A stretch of DNA of 64,000 nt from an uncultured Treponema sp. (GTDB lineage: Bacteria; Spirochaetota; Spirochaetia; Treponematales; Treponemataceae), in assembly GCA_947167345.1 (NCBI GenBank), contig CAMVHR010000002.1, positions 1-64,000 of the forward strand, in the 5' to 3' direction. The position numbers and the translations under genes were made by a program. Below are positions 55,717 to 57,319 of this stretch, in pieces. Positions within the stretch are counted from its first letter, which is position 1; every line of letters starts with the position of its first letter. Under the pieces are notes generated by a model, which was given only the letters and a program-made list of their open reading frames with translations, made no database searches and was not told the DNA's origin.

Positions 55717-55740
55717 AATTTGCTTATAAGCATAAAAAAA

Positions 55741-55773
55741 GCCAATCTGATTTATTTCAGATTGGCTTTTTGA
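55741..55773 (+). terminator. intrinsic terminator
   Basis: AAAAAAAGCCAATCTGAtttattTCAGATTGGCTTTTT. Confidence 0.85.
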
Positions 55774-55872
55774 TGTTTAACTACTGAATATAAAAATTCT
55801 GCTATTTTTCCTGCTGTTCTGTTGCAGTGCTCTTTGCGGGCTCAAAGGCAATGTACATTCATCCCAGTTTTG

Positions 55873-55900
55873 TTGACAGATTGAAAAATTCTGCTAAAAT
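55873..55900 (+). promoter_or_regulatory. sigma70-like promoter
   Basis: TTGACA - 16 bp - TAAAAT upstream of the ORF starting at 55941. Confidence 0.65.
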
Positions 55901-55940
55901 GTAGATATAACATAGCCTTATTTGCGGTAGGAGAATCTTT

Positions 55941-57157
55941 ATGGAAAGAATACTAAAAGTTAGCTTAAAATTGGGGGGGGGGTAACCCTTTGTTTAATAT
56001 TCAGCGTTTTTAGCCTGCTGGCAAGTCTTTTCCTTGTTTCCTGTGCTGGAGGTGCGACGAGTGCCAAGACTACTGGTACTAGCGGTCTTTGTGTACGCGT
56101 GCCAAAGACATCATCTCAAAGCCGTGCCGCACAGTATAATGTTTCAGACCTTGAAGTTTTTACCGTAATTGTAGATTCTGGACGCTTTTCCACGTCAAAA
56201 TCTTGCGGACAGGGTGAAACCCTTGAATTTACAGACCTTCCTGTAGGGCGTTACAATGTGACGGCTATTGCAAAAAAGTCTGACGGAACCGTAACTGGCA
56301 GAGGTTCTGCATCTGTAGACATTGAAGCCGATGTAGTTAAAAACGTTACAATAGTCATTCACCGCCTTAATCATTATACAATTCAGGTTTATGATGCTGT
56401 GGGAACTACTCCTGCTTCTGTAGAAGTCAGCGACGGCGAAAAACTTTCAAAACCTGCAACACCTCCTTCCCCTGGAACAGACTATGAATTTGGAGGCTGG
56501 TTTGTCGGTACTTCTACTGCAACAGGTGTAACATATTCTGCTGCGGCATACGATTTTGACGCGCCTGTAACGTCAGAATTTTCTCTTTATGCAAAATGGG
56601 TATATAAAACTGCTACTTTCACTGGAAGCCTTTCAAGTTTCATAAACACTACATTTAAGGCAAATACTAAAGCTACGCCTTATAATATCCAACTTACAGG
56701 GCTTAGCAATACCGATTTGGCAGCTGTTGCCGCTCAGGTTGCGTCTAAGGGTGTTTACATAAATCTAGACCTGTCATCATGTACTGGCATAAATCATACT
56801 GGTAACAATACGTTTGATGCTTCTTCCAATGAAAGTCTTGCAGGGCTTGCTACGTATTTGACGGGAATTTCTCTTCCTCCGAATGCAAAAATAGGAAACT
56901 GGGCATTCAAGGGATGTTCAAACCTTTCTGGAACAATATCAATTCCTGCCGGATGTATATGTATTGGGCGTCAGGCATTCAAGGATACTGGCATCTCAGG
57001 ATACACTGATGGTGGCGGTGCCCGTATATGGCAGCGTGTAGATGCTGGGGCTAACAGCTGGGTAGGCGGATGGGAATGCTATCTGGTTGAGTCTCATGTA
57101 TTGGATGGAATAAATGCGGACGGCAACTATTATTATGCTCCTTCCGGCTCATACTAA
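55941..57157 (+). CDS. phase-OFF lipoprotein with InlB B-repeat-like and BspA-type LRR regions
   Basis: ATG at 55941 with TAGGAG RBS; stop TAA directly after the G10 tract; +1 frame reads GVTLCLIFSVFSLLASLFLVSCAGG (lipobox) and continues open to 57157; TDYEFGGWFVGTSTATG...SLYAKW and IGNWAFKGCSNLSGTISIPAGCICIGRQAFKDTGI. Confidence 0.85.
55973..55982. repeat. poly-G(10) homopolymer
   Basis: TTGGGGGGGGGGTAACC read directly. Confidence 0.95.
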
Positions 57158-57225
57158 CTGCTGTTTCCAAAAGACTTGTTGACGAAATGTCTGTAAAATC
57201 TTGATAGAACAGTAATGATAAATAA

Positions 57226-57268
57226 AAATCCCTGTACATTCAGCAAATAAATGTGCAGGGATTTTTAT
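57226..57268 (+). terminator. intrinsic terminator
   Basis: AAAAATCCCTGTACATtcagcaaataAATGTGCAGGGATTTTT. Confidence 0.8.
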
Positions 57269-57319
57269 TATAAGGATATCAACTTCTTCATATATGGAAA
57301 ATTCGTCTGCAAAAATTCG

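Follow-up and report, generated by a model that had tools for sequence, protein, structure and literature searches.

Poly-G runs in the leaders of a lipoprotein gene family suggest an Opa-like phase-variable repertoire in an uncultured Treponema

A lipoprotein gene near the end of a 64,000-nt stretch of an uncultured Treponema genome (the window) carries ten consecutive Gs between its start codon and its signal peptide, and in this assembly the two are out of frame. This gene is one of at least 14 paralogous poly-G lipoprotein genes, and we hold it highly probable that each of these is set ON or OFF independently by slippage of its run. An earlier note on this DNA had proposed slipped-strand phase variation of a surface antigen; the comparisons below support that proposal well and widen it from one switch to about 14 independently set switches, an Opa-like repertoire. 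The host is probably a commensal rumen-type Treponema.

In the proposed mechanism, each family gene would combine its own promoter and ribosome-binding site (RBS) with a short basic leader, a G run, and a signal-peptide core ending in a lipobox. Slippage at replication would shift the start codon into or out of frame with the gene body, and each lipoprotein would be made or not in a heritable and reversible manner, independently of its paralogues. The window gene would here be caught in an out-of-frame register, its leader ending at the TAA at 55983.

The window gene and its predicted protein

The features of the locus are collected in Table 1. Direct inspection of the sequence bore out the start region described in the earlier note: the promoter (TTGACA-16-TAAAAT) matches at 11/12 with a TG ahead of the −10, and a Shine-Dalgarno-like TAGGAG lies 7 nt 5' of the ATG at 55941. 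The G10 run follows ten codons past this ATG and spans codons 11-14. In the frame of the start codon the leader reads MERILKVSLKLGGG and, as had been described, is terminated by a TAA (55983-55985) right behind the run. From 55973 the body frame reads GGGVTLCLIFSVFSLLASLFLVSC-AGG, without a stop to 57154, in agreement with the claim of a frame open to 57157; the third frame closes within about 15 codons. The register arithmetic, by which one G added or two lost joins the start to the lipobox frame, also agrees on recheck. Between the run and a GTG at 56099, the body frame was searched for ATG, GTG and TTG codons and none was found. This GTG lies 3' of the lipobox, and so ORF callers report only a headless ORF of 352 aa, as the earlier note had said. 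With no body-frame start ahead of the lipobox, an alternative route to an exported lipoprotein is not evident for the window copy, and no such product would be expected from it in this register. The OFF gene is still equipped with promoter, RBS and leader, and its 390-aa body is intact. The terminator-like repeat behind carB and the probable terminator behind the gene itself suggest that it is monocistronic.

Dinucleotide shuffles of the window produced a G10 run in 0/100 cases, and runs of G≥10 number five in the whole 3.23-Mb window genome. The locus has two properties of contingency loci: a repeat in the 5' coding region longer than chance, and a run whose length sets the frame, with one frame giving the full protein and the OFF frames ending early. 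A role for the run as a promoter spacer of the T. pallidum type was ruled out by its position, 72 nt downstream of the −10 and inside the leader ORF.

The body frame encodes a lipobox signal peptide (LVSC followed by AGG), from which lipidation is predicted; the SCAG motif is invariant across 12 aligned paralogues. Of the earlier description of the body as InlB-repeat/LRR-like, the InlB part is supported by the predicted fold: an AlphaFold2 model (pLDDT 76.8) matches the InlB B-repeat 2y5p_D with a TM-score of 0.79 on the target at 2.1 Å. The LRR part is weak in this protein, its LRR_5 match (E=6e-5) falling below the Pfam cut-off. PF09479 (InlB B-repeat) was above cut-off in 9/9 other paralogues tested and PF13306 (BspA LRR) in 8/9, with DUF285 in one case. 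Complete members range from about 390 to 1000 codons, the window protein being short among them, and in full-length bodies the InlB-repeat and LRR domains are intact. Judged from domain type only, the family lipoproteins would be surface-exposed, and may serve as antigens or as adhesins.

Table 1. Features of the window locus (coordinates are those of the window)
Feature	Position	Strand	Basis
Terminator-like inverted repeat between carB and promoter	55736..55771		scan
Upstream element TTCATCCCAGTTTTGTTGA, common to most family members, overlapping the −35	55858..55876	+	genome matches
Promoter TTGACA (55873-55878), 16 nt, TAAAAT (55895-55900), TG before the −10	55873..55900	+	scan and sequence
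Shine-Dalgarno-like TAGGAG	55928..55933	+	sequence
Leader ORF MERILKVSLKLGGG-stop, gene start in the OFF register	55941..55985	+	frame reading
G10 tract, proposed slipping site	55973..55982	+	sequence, shuffles, genome counts
Hydrophobic signal-peptide core and lipobox LVS-C (Cys codon 56042-56044), body frame	55983..56044	+	frame reading, SCAG alignment
Mature lipoprotein: N-terminal beta domain, InlB-type B-repeat, C-terminal LRR_5-like segment	56045..57157	+	domain search, alignment, model
Headless ORF, GTG start	56099..57157	+	ORF list
Inverted repeat behind the gene, probable terminator	57221..57269	+	read directly; absent from terminator scan output

The paralogue family and its 5' modules

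The body-frame protein of the window gene was used as the query against the window genome (3.23 Mb, 129 contigs), and genome-wide run statistics were derived from pattern searches. The search returned ~15 paralogous N-termini with the SCAG lipobox and the N-terminal beta domain, a set that the earlier note had missed. At least 14 poly-G lipoprotein genes make up the family, with runs of G8-G10 in 13 and G5 in one (C48a). Four of the 13 are in frame from the ATG at the RBS (C91, G10; C29 and C57, G9; C19, G8), all with complete signal peptides. Out of frame are C2 (the window gene), C48b and C59, with G10; C1, C18 and C65, with G9; C4, C39 and C111, with G8; and also C48a. The in-frame share of 4/13 is near the one third expected from freely drifting registers. 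Moreover, of the 16 sites with G≥8 in the window genome, 13 are in family genes, past the start codon and ahead of the signal-peptide core. Exact-length G runs of 7, 8, 9 and 10 occur at 8, 5, 6 and 5 sites genome-wide, which departs from a steady decay; outside the family the corresponding counts are 8, 1, 1 and 1. The register class needed differs among members (nG mod 3 = 0, 1 or 2), which argues against a fixed frameshift. MutS is encoded in the window genome, suggesting that slippage is not unusually free.

A subfamily with an MSVKN leader features ATGs of the other two frames directly ahead of the run (AAAATGTTATGGGG). Its 5' modules are mostly 82-98% identical and its bodies 41-74%, a difference that suggests exchange or homogenisation of the 5' modules. 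At C111:2373-2810 (L063), a 5' module comprising promoter, leader, G8 and lipobox stops abruptly ~25 codons past the lipobox, and may be a truncated copy or a donor-like fragment. Several contigs terminate inside family genes, as repeats would do.

The family also shares an upstream element. The sequence TTYATCCCANTTTTGTWGA is matched perfectly at 14 places in the window genome. Thirteen of these are upstream of family genes, and the fourteenth precedes a distant SCAGG lipoprotein gene (C19:54232); the backwards control of the sequence has 0 matches in the same genome. A longer version, carrying two CATCCC repeats, adjoins the −35 in most family members, a position that looks operator-like; the window gene has the proximal half only. 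The tandem element is also found beside the −35 of genes for GAPDH, a sensor-like protein, a BMP-like binding protein and a few others (sites outside the family include C54:7667, C44:14897, C19:868, C3:34058, C1:60159 and C3:14820), and at two sites without any long ORF; it could mark a regulon or be a repeated element. An IS end is disfavoured, no inverted partner having turned up in a non-exhaustive look at its flanks. We suggest only tentatively that these features compose a two-tier coat, in which a common regulator acting through the tandem CATCCC element would be overlaid by a per-gene poly-G choice among at least 14 mosaic lipoproteins, the three-frame ATGs of the MSVKN subfamily would make a high/low switch, and the 5' module would spread by recombination.

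Orthologues, selection and alternative explanations

In a scan of public genomes, two MAGs of rumen Treponema yielded family loci: RUI344 (G012) and RGIG5076 (roe-deer rumen). Matches beyond these mostly aligned with the InlB-repeat section of the profile alone and were left out of membership. RGIG5076 members carry runs of G7-G9, and pairwise alignment of orthologous 5' regions with the window genome gives 93-96% identity. In two orthologous pairs, C48b/L114 (G10/G9) and C48a/L111 (G5/G9), the single internal 5' indel is located at the run, with counts that may be off by one in genomes that look like MAGs or drafts; repeat length thus differs between related alleles, a further property of contingency loci. 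A third pair, C29/L112, has a 3-nt indel touching the run and G9 in both. C48b and L114 are OFF in both assemblies and retain an ORF of ~490 codons, and their bodies differ with pS 0.146 and pN 0.065 (dN/dS 0.42, Fisher p=7e-6). This OFF/OFF pair is under purifying selection, which would fit genes expressed part of the time. The earlier note had held that headless and degraded homologues would speak against switching. Those found are not of this kind: the window genome itself has four in-frame paralogues that carry a tract, and among orthologues the indels fall at the run and the OFF/OFF pair keeps its reading frame under constraint.

Neither RGIG5076 nor RUI344 yielded an orthologue of the window gene itself, and in both the gene is missing from the region downstream of carB. 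The carB of RGIG5076 is 80% identical to that of the window and its family contigs up to 94%, and this MAG may therefore be a mixed-species bin. RUI344 is a more distant rumen species; none of the four homologues read there has a G run, and the start is in frame with the lipobox in at least three, suggesting that the run is an added device and not part of the protein. L118 in RUI344 (C126) has no G run; its best RBS-linked ATG, a tentative start, is followed by A6 and does not share the frame of the body. No relatives were found in viral contigs. When one G≥9 run was sampled from each of a small set of related genomes, a purpose-made regular expression of our own scored a lipoprotein signal just downstream in 7/28, against 2-3.4% at random positions; most of these seven runs lie upstream of the start codon.

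Poly-G runs were also seen at other kinds of gene. An HD-domain gene has a G10 at its 3' end (C1:10530-10539; L035, L064), ~80 nt ahead of the start of an M16-peptidase-like lipoprotein, and RGIG5076 has a G10 in the same place (L219); this is possibly a second type of poly-G locus. An in-frame G9 within an FkbM-type methyltransferase gene (C10:65829-65837; L042) possibly confers phase-variable surface modification. RGIG5076 also has a G8 within a family-2-like glycosyltransferase reading frame (L229), which its assembly shows out of frame, with phase-variable glycosylation as a possible consequence.

No feature of an assembly is less reliable than homopolymer length, and a lone consensus cannot display a mixture. 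The true run of the window gene might be one register off, the gene simply on and no switching involved. Such an error is very unlikely, however, to account for these data: eight further paralogues would need to be wrong too, and same-site length differences recur across two separately assembled genomes, one of them of at least 4 bases. Error would also leave unexplained why G≥8 runs cluster at this position in family genes. Less probable still is a decaying pseudogene family in which frameshifts gather in homopolymers. Decay would suit C111, a 5' fragment ending soon past its lipobox, and C48a, which is down to G5 and off, but not the complete stop-free bodies of 390-980 codons, the dN/dS well below 1 in the OFF/OFF pair, or the four in-frame members with complete signal peptides.

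Transcriptional slippage is possible on long homopolymers, and the frame might instead be mended at expression, by RNA polymerase slippage or by programmed ribosomal frameshifting, so that some lipoprotein would come from every register. The other-frame ATGs of the MSVKN subfamily could similarly allow weak expression in OFF registers. This explanation is unlikely as well, since no single shift would serve members that need different DNA registers, some of which are already in frame. Moreover, conservation would be expected of a programmed site, but the run varies in length, and the window gene has no alternative body-frame start ahead of its lipobox. We infer instead that slippage of the DNA run causes the differences in run length, and that the genes switch.

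Known switching systems and the gut setting

In its working, the family is closest to Neisseria opa, in which up to 11 dispersed paralogous surface-protein genes each carry CTCTT repeats where the leader peptide is encoded (PMC3960869). Both systems feature dispersed paralogues, each with its own leader-coding repeat that sets the frame; here, however, the repeat is a G homopolymer and not a pentamer, and the host is probably a gut commensal spirochaete. The proteins are InlB/LRR lipoproteins, not homologous to the eight-stranded outer-membrane beta-barrel of Opa. By this analogy the family would work like Opa switching, but it is no Opa. In lineage, the closest systems are the T. pallidum poly-G promoters of tpr subfamily II, tp0126 and tprL, with ~8-10 G and length-dependent expression (PMC7864442, PMC3373638). 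These likewise pair runs of about 8-10 G with surface proteins in a treponeme, of other protein families; their runs lie in promoters and change transcription, whereas a run in the coding leader would change translation. At tp0127 the run lies in the ORF, with frame effects cited as unpublished data (PMC7864442, PMC3373638). In protein type, the closest is Candidatus Mycoplasma girerdii, for which the accessible part of the source describes a large BspA-like surface repertoire, several members having frame-switching repeats with read-length variants (PMC5476646). Its repeats are dinucleotides and its host a mollicute, and that part of the source does not describe a shared N-terminal lipoprotein domain or promoter element.

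The mechanism is already known. What appears to be undescribed in the literature searched is the gene family, its host setting and, for Treponema, the placing of the run in the leader, where it would act on translation. That literature yielded no paper on such a poly-G lipoprotein family in rumen or gut Treponema, although absence is unproven. Phase-variable surface repertoires have been described mostly in pathogens. In a comparison of treponeme genomes, the gut commensal T. ruminis had the fewest homopolymeric tracts, in contrast to pathogens (PMC8049484). Poly-G switching in the leader would explain the headless lipoproteins called in such MAGs. Overall, a large translational poly-G repertoire in a rumen-type treponeme suggests that switching also serves life in the gut, where its roles may include attachment, or evasion of host IgA, of phage or of grazing protists.
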